From Kribbella rubisoli (lineage in GTDB: Bacteria; Actinomycetota; Actinomycetes; Propionibacteriales; Kribbellaceae): DNA of 64,000 nucleotides. The position numbers and the translations under genes were made by a program. The stretch lies in NCBI RefSeq assembly GCF_004217145.1, contig NZ_SHKR01000011.1, positions 496,001 to 560,000 on the forward strand. The letters run 5' to 3'. The notes beneath the pieces were generated by a model. That model searched no databases. It saw nothing but the letters and a program-made list of their open reading frames with translations, and was not told where the DNA came from. How positions within the stretch are numbered: position 1 is the first letter of the stretch; every line of letters begins with the position of its first letter. Positions 1 through 61,752 of the stretch are shown here, piece after piece.

Positions 1-1674
1 CTCTCGCAGGAACAATGCGGCCAGCACCATCCAGACCTGGCGGCGACGGTCGCGGTCCAGCTCGTCCGACGGCTCCAGGCTGATCGCCGCACGGATCTGG
101 TCCATTCCGCCGTCCCCGGCGAGTACCTTCGCCACACCGCTCGCCAGCATGCCCATGATCCTTGGACCAGGCCGCTCGAGCGCCGGCCGGAGGCGATCCA
201 GCTCGTGCGCGACCTCTAGACCAGCCGCGGCGTCACACAGCCGAAAGCACGCCGCGACAGCATCAGCGAGCAGCCCGGTAGCGACCTCCGGATCCGTACA
301 CTCCGCGGCCGCAGCCACGAGGATGTCGCGAGCCCGGCGCGGCGAGCCACACTTCACTTCGATGTCGCCGCGAATCTCCTGCGCCCGGAGCTTCACCGGC
401 AGCGGCGGCTGCAGCATCAACGCGTCAGCGAGCAAGGCGCCTGCCCGCTCCGCAAGTCCGGCCGACCACGCCGCCTCCCCAGCAGCCACCAACCTGAGTG
501 CGCGGTCCTGCAGCCTCTGACTCAGTCGCCCAGCACGTTCGTACGCCGTCGCAGCGACCGCGTGCGCCCCGCGAGCCGCGGCGTGTTCGGCCGCAACGAC
601 CAGTCCGGCCGCCACCTCATCGTCAGCGCCCAGAACTGCCTCGGACAGGTGCCAAGCACGCCGGTCCTCGTCCGGTGTGGTGCCGGCGACCGCGCGATGC
701 GCAGTACGTCGCTCTGCTGGATCAGCACTCGTGTAGATGGCGGAGCGGACCAGCGGATGCCGCCAGACGACCTCACCGTCGCGGATCGCAACCAGCCCGG
801 CCGCTTCGGCCTCCTCGAGAACCGCCACGTCAACGCCCAGCTCTGCGCAGGCGCGTGCGACGGCTCCGAGTTCACAGTCGTCGATCGCCGAGACCAGCAG
901 CGCGGTCCGAGCGTCCGGGCTGAGTCGGTTTGCCCTGCTGACAAAGGCTTCTGCGAGCATCGTCGGCACCGGGAGAGGCACGCCGGGCGGCGTACGGTGC
1001 AAGCGGTCCGGGTCGTCTGCCAGCTCGAGCAGGGCCAGCGGGTTACCTGCCACGGTTTGGTAGAGCTGCTCGACCAGATCACCCGGCAGGTGTTGCACAA
1101 GCTGTTGCGCGGCCTCGAGCGTGATCCCGTCCAGCTGCAGCCTCGGGAGATCAGCCTCTAGCGGATGCGGTTCGTGAGCACGGGCTGCGATCAGCATGAC
1201 GATTGGATCGGCGACCAGGCGCCGTGCGGCGAACAGCAAGGCTTCTGCGGACGGACGGTCGAGCAGATGTGCGTCGTCGATGATCAGCGCGAGCGGGGCG
1301 TCTTCGGCGTACCGGCAGATCAGGCTGAGGGTTGCGGCACCGACAGCGAACCGGTCCGCCGGGGTACCAGTGTCAGGCCTCAACGCCAGCGCGGATGCGA
1401 GTGCTGACTGCTGTGGACCGGGGATGCGGTCGAGGCTGGACAGGGCTGGTCGTAGTAGTTGGAGCAGAGCTGCGAAAGGCACTTCACGTTCGGCTTCGGC
1501 GCCGCGAGCGCGCAGGATGCGCAGTCCGCCGGCCATGGCAGCAGCTTCGTCCAGCAGGCTGGTTTTGCCGATGCCGGGCTCGCCGGTGACGAGCAGCACC
1601 CCAGCGGCTCCGACCCGCGCCCCCGCGACCAGTTGCTCGACCACCCGGCGCTCCGCCTCCCGCCCGATGAGCAT
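1..1674 (-). CDS. LuxR-family ATP-dependent regulator (LAL type), partial
   Basis: The frame is open without a stop from ATG at 1674 to the left edge, giving 558 visible residues. The protein opens MLIGREAERR, then a Walker A loop GEPGIGKT at about residues 31-38 and a Walker B-like LALIIDDAHLLD. A long alpha-helical TPR-like stretch follows. This is the architecture of large LuxR-type (LAL/MalT-like) regulators: AAA/NACHT-type ATPase, helical sensor, C-terminal LuxR helix-turn-helix. The HTH would lie beyond the window, so the LuxR label rests on the N-terminal half only. It is divergent from the methyltransferase at 1772, which may be its target (inference). Confidence 0.8.
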   Translation of the reverse strand, partial: MLIGREAERRVVEQLVAGARVGAAGVLLVTGEPGIGKTSLLDEAAAMAGGLRILRARGAEAEREVPFAALLQLLRPALSSLDRIPGPQQSALASALALRPDTGTPADRFAVGAATLSLICRYAEDAPLALIIDDAHLLDRPSAEALLFAARRLVADPIVMLIAARAHEPHPLEADLPRLQLDGITLEAAQQLVQHLPGDLVEQLYQTVAGNPLALLELADDPDRLHRTPPGVPLPVPTMLAEAFVSRANRLSPDARTALLVSAIDDCELGAVARACAELGVDVAVLEEAEAAGLVAIRDGEVVWRHPLVRSAIYTSADPAERRTAHRAVAGTTPDEDRRAWHLSEAVLGADDEVAAGLVVAAEHAAARGAHAVAATAYERAGRLSQRLQDRALRLVAAGEAAWSAGLAERAGALLADALMLQPPLPVKLRAQEIRGDIEVKCGSPRRARDILVAAAAECTDPEVATGLLADAVAACFRLCDAAAGLEVAHELDRLRPALERPGPRIMGMLASGVAKVLAGDGGMDQIRAAISLEPSDELDRDRRRQVWMVLAALFLRE

Positions 1675-1771
1675 GTCTCGCAGTGTGCACCAGTAGGCCC
1701 ACCTGATGCGACCGTCCGTCCACGCTGCCTACGTTTCCTCGGGTACGCAAAACCACTAGGGGGCAAAGCAA

Positions 1772-2836
1772 ATGACTGTTGCAATTGACGCCGACAAGCT
1801 GATGGGCTTCGTGTTCAAGGCTGTGGACGAGGTGGGGGCGACGCTGAACGCGGCGCTGGTGGTGATGGGTGATCGCCTCGGGTACTACCAGGCGCTCAGC
1901 GATCAAGGCCCGGCCACGCCGTCCGAGCTCGCCGAGTGGACCAGCACCGACGAGCACTACACCCGCGAGTGGCTCAACGCCCAGGCCGCGGGTGGGATCG
2001 TCGAGTACGACGCGAGTACCGGTCGCTACACATTGCCACCAGAGCACGCCATCGCCATGACCGACCCGAGCAGCCCGGCGTACCTGCCTGGGTTCTTCCA
2101 GATCGCACTGGGCACGCTGCAGCACACCACGGACACCATCGAGGCGGCGCGCAGTGGTGCCGGGGTCGGATGGCACGAGCACACGTCGGACGTACACGTC
2201 GGATGCGAGCGGTTCTTCCGGCCGTCGTACAACGCCAATCTGCTGCCGACCTGGCTTCCCGCGCTCGACGGCGTGGTGGAGAAGCTGCAGCAGGGCGCGA
2301 CGGTGGCCGACATCGGCTGCGGGCACGGCTCGTCGACGATCCTGATGGCCGAGGCATTCCCGCGGTCGACGTTCATCGGCTCGGACTACCACCAGGCATC
2401 GATCGAGACGGCCAGGCTGCGGGCGGCGGAGGCAGGTGTCGCTGATCGGGTGTCGTTCGAGGTCTCACCGGCCGACAGCTTCAGCGGCTCCGGATTCGAT
2501 CTGGTGACGACGTTCGACGCCCTGCACGACATGGGCGATCCGGTCGGCGCGGCCCGGCACGTACGGGAGGCGCTGGCGCCCGACGGCACCTGGATGCTGG
2601 TCGAGCCGATGGCCGGCGACCACGTCGAGGACAACCTGAACCCGGTCGGGCGGGCGTACTACGGCTTCTCCACGCTGCTCTGCACGCCGGCGTCGTTGTC
2701 CCAGCCGGTGGGGCTCGCGCTCGGTACGCAGGCCGGCCCGGCGCGGATCCAGGACGTGACCAAGGCGGCCGGGTTCAGCCGGTTCCGGACGGTGGCGCAG
2801 ACGCCGTTCAACCTGGTGTTCGAGGTGCGCCCTTGA
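1772..2836 (+). CDS. SAM-dependent class I methyltransferase with N-terminal winged helix
   Basis: A 354-residue protein. Residues 1-100 resemble the winged-helix dimerisation domain of Rv2258c/O-methyltransferase-like enzymes. The SAM-binding motif I VADIGCGHGSS lies near residues 178-188, followed by the acidic ribose-binding segment FIGSDYH and a post-motif FDLVTTFDALHDMGDP. The closest described group is the mycobacterial Rv2258c family of small-molecule methyltransferases; the substrate cannot be told. ATG at 1772 follows a G-rich stretch (GGGGGCAAAGCAA). It sits alone between the divergent regulator and an ArsR gene. Confidence 0.85.
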   Translation: MTVAIDADKLMGFVFKAVDEVGATLNAALVVMGDRLGYYQALSDQGPATPSELAEWTSTDEHYTREWLNAQAAGGIVEYDASTGRYTLPPEHAIAMTDPSSPAYLPGFFQIALGTLQHTTDTIEAARSGAGVGWHEHTSDVHVGCERFFRPSYNANLLPTWLPALDGVVEKLQQGATVADIGCGHGSSTILMAEAFPRSTFIGSDYHQASIETARLRAAEAGVADRVSFEVSPADSFSGSGFDLVTTFDALHDMGDPVGAARHVREALAPDGTWMLVEPMAGDHVEDNLNPVGRAYYGFSTLLCTPASLSQPVGLALGTQAGPARIQDVTKAAGFSRFRTVAQTPFNLVFEVRP

Positions 2837-56080: not shown

Positions 56081-56776
56081 ATGACCGCTACCAGCGCCCA
56101 GCCCGAGGAACTCGGTCACCGGCTCTCCGGCCGGCTCGGCCCGCTCAAACCGAAGCTGCGCGGATGGCTGCACGCCGGCACGTTCCCCTTCGCCACAGCC
56201 GCCGGCATCGTCCTGATCTGCCTGGCTCCGCACGCCAACGCCCGGTTGGCCGCTGCGGTCTATACCGCCGGCGCGATGCTGCTGTTCGGCATCTCCGCCC
56301 TGTATCACCGCTTCTACTGGGGCCCGACCGGCGAGGCGATTCTGCGCCGTCTGGACCACAGCAACATCTTCCTGCTGATCGCAGGCACCTACACCCCGCT
56401 CGGCATGGTCCTCCTGCACGGCCAGGACCGGGTGCTGATGCTCGGCCTGGTCTGGGGCGGCGCGACCGCCGGAATCCTGTTCCGCATCTTCTGGCTGAGC
56501 GCGCCGCGCTGGATCTACACGCCGATCTACCTCGCGCTCGGCTGGGTCGCCATCTTCTGGATGGGCGACATCTACCACGCCGGCGGCGCCGCTGTAGTCA
56601 CCCTGATCGCGGTCGGCGGCGGGCTGTACTCGATCGGCGCAGTCGTCTACGGCACCAAGCGCCCGAACCCCTCCCCCCGCTGGTTCGGCTTCCACGAAAT
56701 CTTCCACGCCTTCACCGTGGCCGCCTTCATCTGCCACTACATCGCCGTCAGCATCGCGACGTACCACGCCGGCTGA
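56081..56776 (+). CDS. Hemolysin III / TrhA (PAQR-like) membrane protein
   Basis: A 231-residue seven-helix protein. It has GWLHAGTFPFATAAGIVLICLA, the conserved S-x3-H motif in ALYHRFYWG, LRRLDHSNIFLLIAGTYTPLGMVLLHG, and a C-terminal FGFHEIFHAFTVAAFICHYIAVSI with H-x3-H metal ligands. This is the zinc-site set of PAQR/TrhA hydrolases. Role: membrane lipid homeostasis. GAAAGGACGG precedes ATG 56081. Confidence 0.9.
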   Translation: MTATSAQPEELGHRLSGRLGPLKPKLRGWLHAGTFPFATAAGIVLICLAPHANARLAAAVYTAGAMLLFGISALYHRFYWGPTGEAILRRLDHSNIFLLIAGTYTPLGMVLLHGQDRVLMLGLVWGGATAGILFRIFWLSAPRWIYTPIYLALGWVAIFWMGDIYHAGGAAVVTLIAVGGGLYSIGAVVYGTKRPNPSPRWFGFHEIFHAFTVAAFICHYIAVSIATYHAG

Positions 56777-56796: not shown

Positions 56797-57135
56797 CTAG
56801 CGCTTGTGGCTGAAGGCGGCTAGGAGGACGACGAGCGCGACCCCAGTGGCTGCGTGAAACGTGCCGCGGGGAGGTGCTTTCAGTACGTCGTGGTCGCCGT
56901 CGCTGCTGAGTAACGACCAGCGGGAGCGGGCCGAGAGTGCTGAACCGACGGAGAGCACCGAGCCGGCCGAGAAGGCGGAGAGGGTCGATCCGACCGACGC
57001 GACCGACAGTGCGGAGCCGACCGATCCGACGCTGAGCACCGAACCCACCGATCCGATCGACAGGATCGAGCCGCGGCTTGCGATCGACAGGAACGAGTCT
57101 TCTGACCGCAACGACAATCCGCCCATGCTCGGCAT
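56797..57135 (-). CDS. Ser-x-x triplet-repeat protein with C-terminal membrane tail
   Basis: A 112-residue protein. Serine occupies every third position from residue 8 to residue 77, giving 24 consecutive Sxx triplets without a break. The x positions are mostly Gly, Val, Leu, Ile, Ala (for example SVGSVLSVGS). A polar linker (SDGDHDVLKAPPRGT) leads to one hydrophobic helix (about residues 95-108, AATGVALVVLLAAF) and a basic end SHKR, so it looks tail-anchored. The regularity suggests a repetitive beta-type or filamentous structure. No known family is named with confidence. ATG 57126 is an alternative start. Confidence 0.75.
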   Translation of the reverse strand: MPSMGGLSLRSEDSFLSIASRGSILSIGSVGSVLSVGSVGSALSVASVGSTLSAFSAGSVLSVGSALSARSRWSLLSSDGDHDVLKAPPRGTFHAATGVALVVLLAAFSHKR

Positions 57136-57167
57136 TCTGACACGAGCAGACGTACTTCGGCGGACGG

Positions 57168-58100
57168 TCAGACGAGCAGCGTCTCGAGCTCTGGTAGACG
57201 GCTGAACATGTCGGGGAGACCGCGCACGCCATTGCGTACGGACTCGTGTGACAGCGCGAGGTCAGGGCCCGTACCCACCTCGACACCGGCCAGGCAGCGG
57301 AGGACGTTCCACCGTGTGTGCCCCAGCCAACCGCCGATCATGAACACGAACCAACTCGGTCCCGACGGCGGCAGGGCTCCACCCCCTGCGACATAGCCGT
57401 CGAGAACCGAACGGAAGATAGCAGGCTGGATGTCGTCGAAGCCCGGCCCCTTCGACAGGCTCAGCGCGGTCGAGCCGAGCTCACCGGCCAGATCGAGCCT
57501 CCCCGAGAGCTCCCAGTCGAGCAGTACCGGCCGGCCATCTCGAGCGAGCAGGTTCCACGGCTGGATGTCCTTGTGGGTCAGTACGACGGGGCCCGGCCGC
57601 TCGCAGGTGTCGACGAAGTACGCGATTGCGAGGAACGTCTCGACCTGGCTGGCGAGTTCCTCGGCCCACGGCTGCCCGGTCGCCACCGCCCGCTCTGCGA
57701 GCTCGGGCCAGTCCGGTGGCATCGGATCCTCGGTCGACATGTCGGTCCACTCGACGTCCAGCCCGTGGAGGCGAGCGAGGATCTCACCGATCTCGAACGC
57801 GGACGCCGCCGACACCGGCGCTTCGGGAACAGTCTCCCCGGCGACCCACCGGTGCACGAGCACATCGCGGCCGGCCAAGATCGGCTCTGGCATCGGAACG
57901 CCGGCGGCGAAGGCTGCCCGCTCGAACCTGAACACGTCCTCGATCCGATACACCCAGCGGCGGTCGACGAGGTTCAGCTCCTTCACCGCGAACGACCCCT
58001 GGTCGGTGTCGAGCCGGTACATCCGGTTGGCGAACCCACCGTGGACACGGATCATCGGCCCGGTCGGCGTACCGAGCTGCGAAAGATCCACCCGGCGCAC
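57168..58100 (-). CDS. Aminoglycoside phosphotransferase-like kinase
   Basis: A 310-residue kinase-like protein. The N-lobe is GGFANRMYRLDTDQGSFAVKELNL with catalytic Lys. The catalytic loop is VVLTHKDIQPWNLLARDG (HKD in place of HGD) and the metal motif is PVLLDWELSGRLDLAGELGSTALSL. The C-terminal helical lobe ends HTRWNVLRCLAGVEVG. Target unknown. GTG 58100. Located between the Sxx-repeat gene and a frameshifted gene. Confidence 0.82.
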   Translation of the reverse strand: MRRVDLSQLGTPTGPMIRVHGGFANRMYRLDTDQGSFAVKELNLVDRRWVYRIEDVFRFERAAFAAGVPMPEPILAGRDVLVHRWVAGETVPEAPVSAASAFEIGEILARLHGLDVEWTDMSTEDPMPPDWPELAERAVATGQPWAEELASQVETFLAIAYFVDTCERPGPVVLTHKDIQPWNLLARDGRPVLLDWELSGRLDLAGELGSTALSLSKGPGFDDIQPAIFRSVLDGYVAGGGALPPSGPSWFVFMIGGWLGHTRWNVLRCLAGVEVGTGPDLALSHESVRNGVRGLPDMFSRLPELETLLV

Positions 58101-58943: not shown

Positions 58944-60524
58944 ATGCAGTGTTATTCCTGTGGGGCGGAAAATCGGCTTGCAGCGGTGTACTGCGGCACG
59001 TGTGGGCAGAAGCTCGGCGGAGTCGCGACCAACGGGGACAGATTCGTCGACCACGTGATGCCGGTCGACAGTCCAACGACCGGCAGGCGCATCGCAGTAC
59101 TTCCGGCGGCAAATGGAACCTTGCCGACAGAAAATGGAATCAGGGCCAGATCCGAGCAGCGGGCTTCGGACGCGACCCGCTATCTGTGCGCGGCCGTGCA
59201 TCTCGACAGCCGGATCGCGGACCAGGTCATCGACGACCTGCTGGAACAGGACTACCGGGCGGCGCCGTCGTCCCCGGACGTCGACCTGGTTCCGGTGGTC
59301 CTGCACGCGCTGGCGGCCCGCAGGCGACAACTCACGCGCGACGTGATTCTCGTCGTGCTGATGATCGCGATGGCCTGGTTCCTGGTCTCGCTGCACTCGA
59401 CGGCGTTCCTGGTCAGCATCGCCCTCGCCTGGGCGGCGGTGCTCGGCGAGACTCTGGTGGCGACGTACGGCGTACTCGCGCACGACCTGCGGCCGGGCAA
59501 CTTCCACCCTGCGAGGGTGCCCCGTCCAGCCAGTTCCAAGGCACGCAAACGTCTGGAGCAGATCGAGGAATTCGGTCGATCCAACGTCTCCGTCTACAGC
59601 TCGTATGTACCGTTCGTCGGCCACGGCCGGACGGTCGAGGCCTGGTCGGCCGCCCTGGCCCTCCGCGGCACGGCGAATCGGAAGGCGGAACCCTTCACCA
59701 CCTCGGACATCCACGACTTCGTGCTGGCCAGGATGCGCGAGATCCCCGTCGGCACGGTGGAAGTCTCCGATCGGATCTACGTCGACGGCCGGGACATCCG
59801 CGGCGACCGCCGCTTCCTTGCTGGTGATCTGTCGGTGCCCAGAGCACATGTGGATCCCTCGCTCATCCGCAGCCTGATGGTCGAGCCCGAGGATCGTGCG
59901 CGGCCCTATCTGTCCTTCCAGATCAAAGGCTGGCGGGGTCAGCTGGTGCTGTCGACGTTCCTGCGCTTCGTCGTGACCTCGAAGGAAGTCTTCATCGAGG
60001 TCAGCCACTCGCTACTGACTCCGGTTCGGGACGAGTTCCAGGTGGTGGACCGGCTGCTACCACAGCCCACTGCACGGCAGGCAGTGGTGCTCGCTGGGAA
60101 GTCGGCCGCCATGCTTTTGATCTACCTCGTCCGGGCGCCCATGGCGTTGGCCAAGGCAATCACCCGCCCGCTCGCCGCGGAACTCCGGACGGCGCGGCAA
60201 CGCCGGGAGATTCTCGGGGCCTTGCACTTCAATTACGGCGCACCGGTCAGTCCGCGCGAGACCGTCAGTGATCCGCAGTTCCAGCGTTATTTCCAGAAGC
60301 TCGACACATCGCACTACGTCAAGGTTCTCGAGAAGCGCCTCCTCGACGCCATCGTTGATTTCCTCGAAGCGCGGGGGATTGACACGTCGGAGTTCGACGA
60401 GAGAAAGCAGACGATCGAGAACAACGGTCTTTACGTCGCCGGCAACCTCGTGGCGGGAAGCGTCGCGGTAGGTGCCGGAGCGCGGGCGACAACGAGGGCC
60501 GCCAAGGCCAGAAGAAGGCGATGA
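58944..60524 (+). CDS. Zinc-ribbon membrane protein with C-terminal GNxVAG motif (gene A)
   Basis: A 526-residue protein. An N-terminal zinc ribbon C3-x2-C6-x10-C17-x2-C20 (QCYSCGAENRLAAVYCGTCG) is followed by two membrane helices at about 130-175 (ILVVLMIAMAWFLVSL and FLVSIALAWAAVLG). A large cytoplasmic domain of no recognised family follows, with a hydrophobic stretch AAMLLIYLVRAPMAL near residue 390. The end is NNGLYVAGNLVAGSVAVGAGARATT plus a basic tail. The last motif recurs at the N-terminus of the next gene. ATG 58944. Confidence 0.7.
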   Translation: MQCYSCGAENRLAAVYCGTCGQKLGGVATNGDRFVDHVMPVDSPTTGRRIAVLPAANGTLPTENGIRARSEQRASDATRYLCAAVHLDSRIADQVIDDLLEQDYRAAPSSPDVDLVPVVLHALAARRRQLTRDVILVVLMIAMAWFLVSLHSTAFLVSIALAWAAVLGETLVATYGVLAHDLRPGNFHPARVPRPASSKARKRLEQIEEFGRSNVSVYSSYVPFVGHGRTVEAWSAALALRGTANRKAEPFTTSDIHDFVLARMREIPVGTVEVSDRIYVDGRDIRGDRRFLAGDLSVPRAHVDPSLIRSLMVEPEDRARPYLSFQIKGWRGQLVLSTFLRFVVTSKEVFIEVSHSLLTPVRDEFQVVDRLLPQPTARQAVVLAGKSAAMLLIYLVRAPMALAKAITRPLAAELRTARQRREILGALHFNYGAPVSPRETVSDPQFQRYFQKLDTSHYVKVLEKRLLDAIVDFLEARGIDTSEFDERKQTIENNGLYVAGNLVAGSVAVGAGARATTRAAKARRRR

Positions 60525-60528
60525 GCCG

Positions 60529-60876
60529 ATGGAGAAGAACAACGGCATCAGCGTCGGCGGGAACTTCGTCGCCGGAGCGGTCGCGGCCGGCAAGCACGCC
60601 CGGGCGACGAACATTTCGACAGGCGATTCCCTGGGCGCTGCCAGGACCCAGATGCAGATGCTGCTCGACTTGGTGCACACACACACCGGCGAGCTGACGC
60701 GCCCCGACGAAACCATCGCCGCGGCCGAGTCCGCACGGAGGGAGCTCGAGGCCGACGAGCCCGACAAACCGAAGATCCTCGGCCGGCTGATGACCGTCGC
60801 ATCCGGAGCCGGCGCGATCGCCGCGATCTCCGAAGCCGTCACCGCTGTCCACGAAGCGATCGCGGCGCTGCTATGA
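60529..60876 (+). CDS. Small protein with N-terminal GNxVAGxVAxG motif (gene B)
   Basis: A 115-residue protein that starts EKNNGISVGGNFVAGAVAAGKHARATN, aligning with the C-terminus of the preceding product (NNG-x2-V-x-GN-x-VAG-x-VA-x-G-x2-ARAT). A helical region (LGAARTQMQMLLDLVHTHTGELTRPDETIAAAESARRELEADEPDKPKIL) and a hydrophobic C-terminal helix (GAGAIAAISEAVTAVHEAIAALL) follow. ATG 60529 is 4 nt after the gene A stop. Similar Gly-rich tracts plus a DKP-x-L-x-A-x-L tail occur near actinobacterial effector-associated proteins; function unknown. Confidence 0.7.
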   Translation: MEKNNGISVGGNFVAGAVAAGKHARATNISTGDSLGAARTQMQMLLDLVHTHTGELTRPDETIAAAESARRELEADEPDKPKILGRLMTVASGAGAIAAISEAVTAVHEAIAALL

Positions 60877-60900
60877 ATCTCAGTGGTCGGGGATGACCTG

Positions 60901-61752
60901 ATGCCCACCTTCTGCACCGAATGTGGCACCAGCCGCGAAGGCGACGAGTCGTTCTGCGTGAACTGCGGAACCAGGTACGACGACGCCGTACGCGGTGATC
61001 GACCTGCCGACACGCCGGACGAAGCGCCGGAGGAGTCGGTAGGCCATGGCGCCGGCTGGTATGTCGGTCTCAGCGTGGCCCTGGCGGCCATCCTGATCGG
61101 CGCGGTCATCGGCGGCGGCGCCCTGCTGCGGAACCGTGTGTCGTCCGCGGACGTCACGGATGCTCCGATCAGCGGCGTGCGGCTGAACAGCGACGGGTAC
61201 ATCGTGACAGGCGGGCCGGGCGAGGAATCGACGCCGGGCCTCGACGAGCCGTCGTACTCCGAGGAGCCGTCGTACACGGAGGAGCCGCAGTACACACCGG
61301 AGCCGACACTGACGTACACGGAAGAGACCCTCCTCCCGACGACGGCGCCGAGCCTAGGCAACGCGATCGTCTCCGCGGCACCGGAGATCGCGAACAACGC
61401 GACGGCGCGAACGGTCGTTGCCCTGCTCACCGGCTACTTCACCGCGATCAACGAGAGGGACTACACCGAGTACCGGAAGGTGGTTACGCGCGGAGCGCGG
61501 CAGACCCAGGCCGAGTTCGAGAAGGGGTATCGCACCACGAACAACGCTCAGGTGCAGTTGCGTGAACTCGGAATCGGCGAGGACGGCCGGCTGATGGCAA
61601 CTGTCGACTTCGTCAGCACGCAGGATGCCGCGGACGGTCCGGAAGGGCAGACCTGCACGCGGTGGACCGTCGCCAAGTTCTTCGAGAAGGATGGCTCCAA
61701 ACTCCGCATCGGCAAGGCTCTCAAAGGCCACAGCTCCGCCTTACCTTGCTGA
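60901..61752 (+). CDS. Zinc-ribbon, single-pass membrane protein with extracellular domain (gene C)
   Basis: A 283-residue protein. The zinc ribbon is C5-x2-C8-x10-C19-x2-C22 (FCTECGTSREGDESFCVNCG). An acidic linker and one membrane helix (WYVGLSVALAAILIGAVIGGGALL, about residues 53-76) follow. Then comes a Glu/Pro/Tyr repeat (EEPSYTEEPQYTPEPT). A C-terminal SnoaL/NTF2-like domain (RTVVALLTGYFTAINERDYTEYRKVV... TCTRWTVAKFFEKDGSKLRIGKA) ends the protein. ATG 60901 has GGGGA upstream. Same operon as genes A and B; resembles sensor-type zinc-ribbon membrane proteins. Confidence 0.75.
   Translation: MPTFCTECGTSREGDESFCVNCGTRYDDAVRGDRPADTPDEAPEESVGHGAGWYVGLSVALAAILIGAVIGGGALLRNRVSSADVTDAPISGVRLNSDGYIVTGGPGEESTPGLDEPSYSEEPSYTEEPQYTPEPTLTYTEETLLPTTAPSLGNAIVSAAPEIANNATARTVVALLTGYFTAINERDYTEYRKVVTRGARQTQAEFEKGYRTTNNAQVQLRELGIGEDGRLMATVDFVSTQDAADGPEGQTCTRWTVAKFFEKDGSKLRIGKALKGHSSALPC

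Follow-up and report, generated by a model that had tools for sequence, protein, structure and literature searches.

The question raised by this locus, which lies in a window of 64,000 nucleotides of Kribbella DNA (the whole stretch analysed here, from what we will call the host genome), is whether a short open frame of strict three-residue regularity is a real gene and, if so, what kind of protein it makes. The frame (56797-57135, minus strand) has 112 residues, ends in a TAG stop and translates as MPSMGGLSLRSEDSFLSIASRGSILSIGSVGSVLSVGSVGSALSVASVGSTLSAFSAGSVLSVGSALSARSRWSLLSSDGDHDVLKAPPRGTFHAATGVALVVLLAAFSHKR. Ser stands at residues 8, 11 and so on to 77, giving 24 of 24 Ser-x-x triplets in register, and the repeats are followed by a linker, a hydrophobic C-terminal helix and then SHKR, exactly as the first-pass annotation of this DNA had described. 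The protein contains 27 Ser among its 112 residues. Even at an assumed Ser content of 33%, which is an overestimate, 24 in-register serines at a given start would be expected with a chance of about 2e-12; a chance origin of the register is excluded. The features to which the text refers are the following.

56081..56776, plus strand: HlyIII/TrhA family membrane protein, convergent neighbour (Pfam PF03006, E 2.8e-50)
56797..57126, minus strand: the Ser-triplet gene from its most likely start, ATG 57126 (109 residues plus TAG; pN/pS and -10 element)
56803..56859, minus strand: residues 93-111, predicted hydrophobic helix of the C-terminal tail, with the terminal Arg after it (AlphaFold2 and relatives)
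56861..57205, plus strand: antisense ORF overlapping the Ser-triplet gene; frame open, pN/pS 0.23 versus 0.08
56905..57114, minus strand: repeat domain, residues 8-77 in the 112-residue numbering, with 24 Ser-x-x triplets and a Trp-bearing end
57127..57135, minus strand: codons 1-3 of the 112-residue ORF (ATG 57135), overlapping the -10 element and probably untranslated
57134..57139, minus strand: -10 element CAGAAT, 7 nt 5' of ATG 57126, with the conserved YANNNT spacing
57168..58100, minus strand: APH-like phosphotransferase, upstream on the same strand (Pfam PF01636, E 3e-20)

The triplet is not the whole of the periodicity. If the last position of each triplet is classed as large or small, the classes agree at 0.72 at a lag of three triplets, as against 0.36 at a lag of one and 0.44 at a lag of two, and this peak indicates that the true repeat unit has nine residues. 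Underlying the triplets is the nonapeptide S-x-L-S-x-G-S-x-G, more fully S-[VIA]-L-S-[IV]-G-S-[VAI]-G, which is most perfect in distant members of the family, as (SILSIGSAG)n; exactly nine residues is also a length difference seen between members. The repeat domain opens with triplets of the form S-L-W/R-S-x-D/N-S and finishes with W residues and S-x-W-S-V-L-S-W-R, and both ends look like caps.

That the frame is read as protein follows from the way in which it varies. The first-pass annotation had suggested comparing synonymous with non-synonymous change and had named loss of the Ser register or of the frame as evidence against its proposal; orthologues keep both, the whole run of serines included. 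Over an ungapped core of 68 codons in ten Kribbella genes, the host's included, the sense frame has a pN/pS of 0.081. The antisense frame with the same wobble position has 0.234, and the remaining four frames all exceed 2.5; at codon positions 1, 2 and 3, respectively, 10, 5 and 54 of the 68 columns are variable. The TCN and AGY families of serine codons are not joined by any single base change, and both are present in 23 of the 24 Ser columns among 81 diverse relatives (1629 and 203 cells), which implies that serine itself is selected at these positions. These substitution patterns show purifying selection to maintain the Ser register and the nine-residue unit, and by the same ratios the antisense ORF at 56861-57205 (plus strand) results from the codon pattern of the sense strand and is a by-product of it.

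The start codon and the promoter can be read by comparison between genomes. The first-pass annotation had the frame right and the start probably wrong: its ATG 57135 overlaps the -10 element and is missing at that position in 2 of 10 Kribbella orthologues (L009 and L010), and ATG 57126 (MGGLSLRS...) is for these reasons the likely true start, so that the host protein probably has 109 residues. An alignment of the regions upstream of 95 family genes, chosen to be non-redundant, places YANNNT at 6 or 7 nt from the start codon in 67 genes and at any other single distance in no more than 3. A G two bases 5' of the hexamer is frequent, and a Shine-Dalgarno-like 4-mer occurs in only 24 genes; a search upstream of the family genes for a conserved -35 element found none. 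From the fixed position of the -10 element, 6-7 bases 5' of the start, a leaderless mRNA is predicted, which in the host would begin at ATG 57126. In Streptomyces coelicolor, the -10 TANNNT lies seven bases before the mapped start, in promoters of the form N8-TANNNT-N7, and leaderless mRNAs arise from 21% of primary starts (PMC4895711); the spacing of CAGAAT, also seven bases, agrees with this published arrangement. In M. tuberculosis, which has many leaderless transcripts, TANNNT precedes most starts by 7-12 bases and no -35 motif emerged (PMC3898074). In some Nocardiaceae members of the family (L134, L151, L154, L159, L161 and L164), YANNNT is replaced upstream of the start by a conserved GTGGTA(A/G)ACCG, which suggests a different type of -10 element.

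Beyond the host, the gene is found in named Kribbella records at 83-90% identity, and close orthologues occur in nine further Kribbella genomes (74-93% identity), with a more distant one in G033. Most of the genus is without it, and its absence from so many Kribbella means that it is dispensable. A family profile, the kind of search that had been proposed for actinobacterial proteomes, was matched at E <= 1e-4 by 46 of the 294 genomes searched in the order and by 26 of 396 taken from across the phylum; in the class, 100 of 395 genomes match at E <= 1e-6, about 68 of them at E < 1e-18. A scan of genome contigs gave at least 496 related stretches, the best 80 of which come from Kribbella, Streptomyces, Kitasatospora, Yinghuangia, Embleya, Nocardia, Rhodococcus, Antrihabitans, Paractinoplanes, Sinomonas and Acidimicrobiia. 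One strong copy per genome is usual, and the host has one. At the level of sequence, these searches show the Ser-triplet proteins to be a real family across Actinomycetota.

As to how the gene came to be so patchily distributed, in most Kribbella pairs its synonymous sites have diverged about as far as those of the adjoining core gene HlyIII, or further, so that recent horizontal transfer within the genus is not supported and the pattern looks like loss or old movement. The Ser-triplet protein changes less than HlyIII does between genomes that carry the gene at different loci. A tblastn search for phage or plasmid relatives returned nothing, but says little, as its low-complexity filter probably masks the query; a scan of viral contigs gave 5 pattern matches and no relative.

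The neighbourhood offers no partner. HlyIII is present in all 38 Kribbella searched and has the Ser-triplet gene beside it in only 6 of the 30 loci inspected; in the others no remnant was seen, and several of these genomes carry the gene elsewhere. Around about 76 loci of the family the neighbouring proteins form 209 clusters; of 100 neighbour proteins, at most 3 belong to any one Pfam family, the APH-like family being in only 3. An operon partner is ruled out by these counts: the gene stands alone, HlyIII and the APH-like gene are not conserved partners, and there is no neighbouring gene from which a function could be borrowed. A leader peptide responding to serine starvation was likewise set aside, as no downstream gene is conserved.

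Some lineages do have local arrangements of their own. In a Streptomyces subset (about 15 of 76 loci, such as L119 4417-5916, L114 4516-5925 and about 13 more), the Ser-triplet gene comes immediately after ssb and the gene for a TQXA/LAETG sortase-anchored thioester surface protein. In all 8 Nocardiaceae-type loci (L154 5079-5861, L159 5084-5860 and six more), Ser-triplet genes with the same type of repeat domain and no hydrophobic tail follow the gene for an Rv1157c-type protein with a signal-like N-terminus; in most of these members the repeats run into a conserved tail ending ...CHCQT or ...ATAHVQS. Elsewhere in the window, an uncharacterised cluster of three genes (58944-61752, plus strand) encodes two proteins that begin with zinc-ribbon motifs (MQCYSCGAENRLAAVYCGTCGQ... 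and MPTFCTECGTSREGDESFCVNCG...), and its first and middle ORFs have in common the motif NNGxxVxGNxVAGxVAxG.

AlphaFold2 gave a mean pLDDT of 52 and a pTM of 0.21 for the host protein with 81 relatives, and 55 and 0.27 for a second, more regular member with 24 sequences. Over the repeats, pLDDT was 41-54 for both queries and alignments, with weak helix where any structure was given, so the beta-roll, polyproline-II or filament-forming fold proposed in the first-pass annotation finds no backing. The membrane helix that it also proposed fares better: confidence is reached for the tail helix alone, at residues 93-111 (block pLDDT 83 over residues 101-110, and 95 in the second member). A hydrophobic segment lies C-terminal to the repeats in 74 of 102 non-redundant relatives, and a C-terminal transmembrane helix is predicted in most members. 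About one-quarter, for example in Nocardia and Rhodococcus, have in its place the conserved ends mentioned above, so that the family as a whole cannot depend on membrane anchoring for its role. No N-terminal hydrophobic segment or signal peptide is evident, and the charge on both flanks of the tail helix is positive (+1.8 before, +2.2 after), so that the sequence does not fix the topology; the surface location once suggested for the protein gains nothing from either observation.

With these properties in mind, the reading that we prefer, and hold only tentatively, somewhat short of an even chance, is that the protein may be a tail-anchored, self-associating repeat scaffold at the cytoplasmic face of the cell membrane, and not an enzyme. 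The lack of a signal peptide and the position of the helix at the extreme C-terminus lead us to infer that it would insert as a tail-anchored inner-membrane protein with its repeat domain on the cytoplasmic side. That domain would form an elongated, regular structure with a serine face, an aliphatic V/I/A face and a face of alternating Leu, Gly and Gly, closed by ends that carry Trp. Through its aliphatic and Gly faces it would make contact with other copies of itself or with the membrane, and packing by these non-serine faces would build the scaffold. A bolder form of the same idea, which we consider rather unlikely, is that the Ser-x-x/nonapeptide array represents an architecture absent from the structural record, perhaps a three-faced helix, wound very tightly, or a solenoid with a continuous serine face, assembling into a membrane-associated scaffold used across Actinomycetota. 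A Foldseek search with the AlphaFold2 model found no match, a result to which the low confidence of the model leaves little meaning.

The hydrophobicity of the repeats invites another explanation. They could themselves lie in or on the membrane, as borderline-hydrophobic segments with a serine stripe that make up a patch or pore, in a 3-10 or alpha helix as in S4-like patterns with every third residue alike, the tail being an extra span; their median maximal 19-residue hydropathy is 1.52, with 27% of members above 1.6. We regard this as unlikely. The low-confidence helix is the sole secondary structure given by AlphaFold2 in the repeats, but its pLDDT is about 50, Gly, Val, Ile and Ser form helices poorly, a nine-residue unit is not the period expected of a helix, and members without the tail exist.

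Less credit still is given to a secreted or surface structural protein, anchored by its tail helix with the serine repeats facing outward. Two arrangements speak for such a location: some Streptomyces genes come after the gene for the LAETG protein, at about 15 of 76 loci, and the Nocardiaceae genes (8 of 8) after the Rv1157c-type gene. But the two kinds of neighbour are lineage-specific and unrelated to each other, and with neither a signal peptide nor an N-terminal hydrophobic segment in the protein, we find this reading quite improbable.

The serines could alternatively be sites of modification, by glycosylation or phosphorylation, or the protein could be a RiPP-like precursor in the manner of HxsA or TvgA. 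Weak matches to NCBIfam HxsA4 (NF038313) are in fact the sole ones that recur across the family, in 70 of 81 members with a best E of 2.2e-6, and His-Xaa-Ser proteins of the HxsA type have in common with it a three-residue period and in-register serine. The host protein, however, scores 13.7 bits against a cut-off of 55 and has no His in residues 8-77, hence no His-Xaa-Ser triplets, and the HxsB maturase (TIGR03978) has no match in the host genome (G000) and none over the cut-off in 39 genomes; membership of the HxsA type was therefore rejected. Short Val/Gly repeats are known as substrates of radical-SAM enzymes, and the TVGG-repeat precursor TvgA resembles the Ser-triplet protein in its many copies of such a repeat, but TvgA is clustered with its radical-SAM enzyme (PMC9062424), whereas neither a maturase nor any other gene repeatedly adjoins this family. 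A modification substrate is thus very unlikely.

Finally, the chance that the ORF is spurious is negligible. Profile searches do pick up shadows of other frames, such as the SVGSVGS ORFs antisense to a TDPTDP-repeat surface protein in L013, but here the frame-specific pN/pS, the switching between serine codon families and a -10 element locked to the same start across genera all stand against one. The L013 protein itself (G048, 17-1972, plus strand) is of cell-wall type, and its complement reads as long SVGSVGS ORFs. Because repeats of the TDP type read backwards imitate the pattern, weak Ser-triplet matches need care, and antisense ORFs of TDPTDP repeats form a class of false positives for such searches.

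The interest of the family lies in the conservation across Actinomycetota, antibiotic-producing Streptomyces included, of a short, exactly periodic protein that appears to have no family entry, no fold either solved or predicted with confidence, and no described function. It would test which fold a strict three-residue serine repeat takes, and its gene is a clean case of a conserved gene that is predicted to be leaderless. Being usually single-copy and stand-alone, with a promoter and start codon readable by comparison, it should be easy to delete, tag and purify in laboratory strains of Streptomyces.

Short-period repeat proteins with membrane tails are known in general; the Ser-triplet family is apparently without prior description in families, structures or the literature. 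Literature searches on the motif and on the idea found no paper describing the protein, within an incomplete coverage of the literature, in keeping with the first-pass annotation, which knew of no function. Profiles from Pfam, NCBIfam, PHROGs, PADLOC and PDB gave no true match, low-complexity corrections making such negative searches weaker, and the PDB matches that did appear were of low complexity and not relatives, the best being a GST-repeat linker in engineered kinesin light chain constructs.

Among known architectures, the RTX nonapeptide beta-roll likewise has a nine-residue unit rich in Gly and small residues, but the Ser-triplet protein is without the Asp/calcium-binding GGxGxDxUx, a secretion signal or a Pfam match, and its AlphaFold2 model contains no beta-roll. 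The hexapeptide left-handed beta-helix and the bactofilin-type solenoids resemble it in their short-period repeats of aliphatic and small residues, which keeps a solenoid among the candidates; they differ in that the family matches none of their Pfam or PDB profiles. AlphaFold2 built no solenoid such as one of 18-residue coils, an absence that proves nothing in a low-confidence model. From bacterial tail-anchored membrane proteins the family is set apart by the quarter or so of its members that have no tail, whereas the others share with them the lack of a visible N-terminal signal and a single predicted C-terminal helix near the end of the chain.
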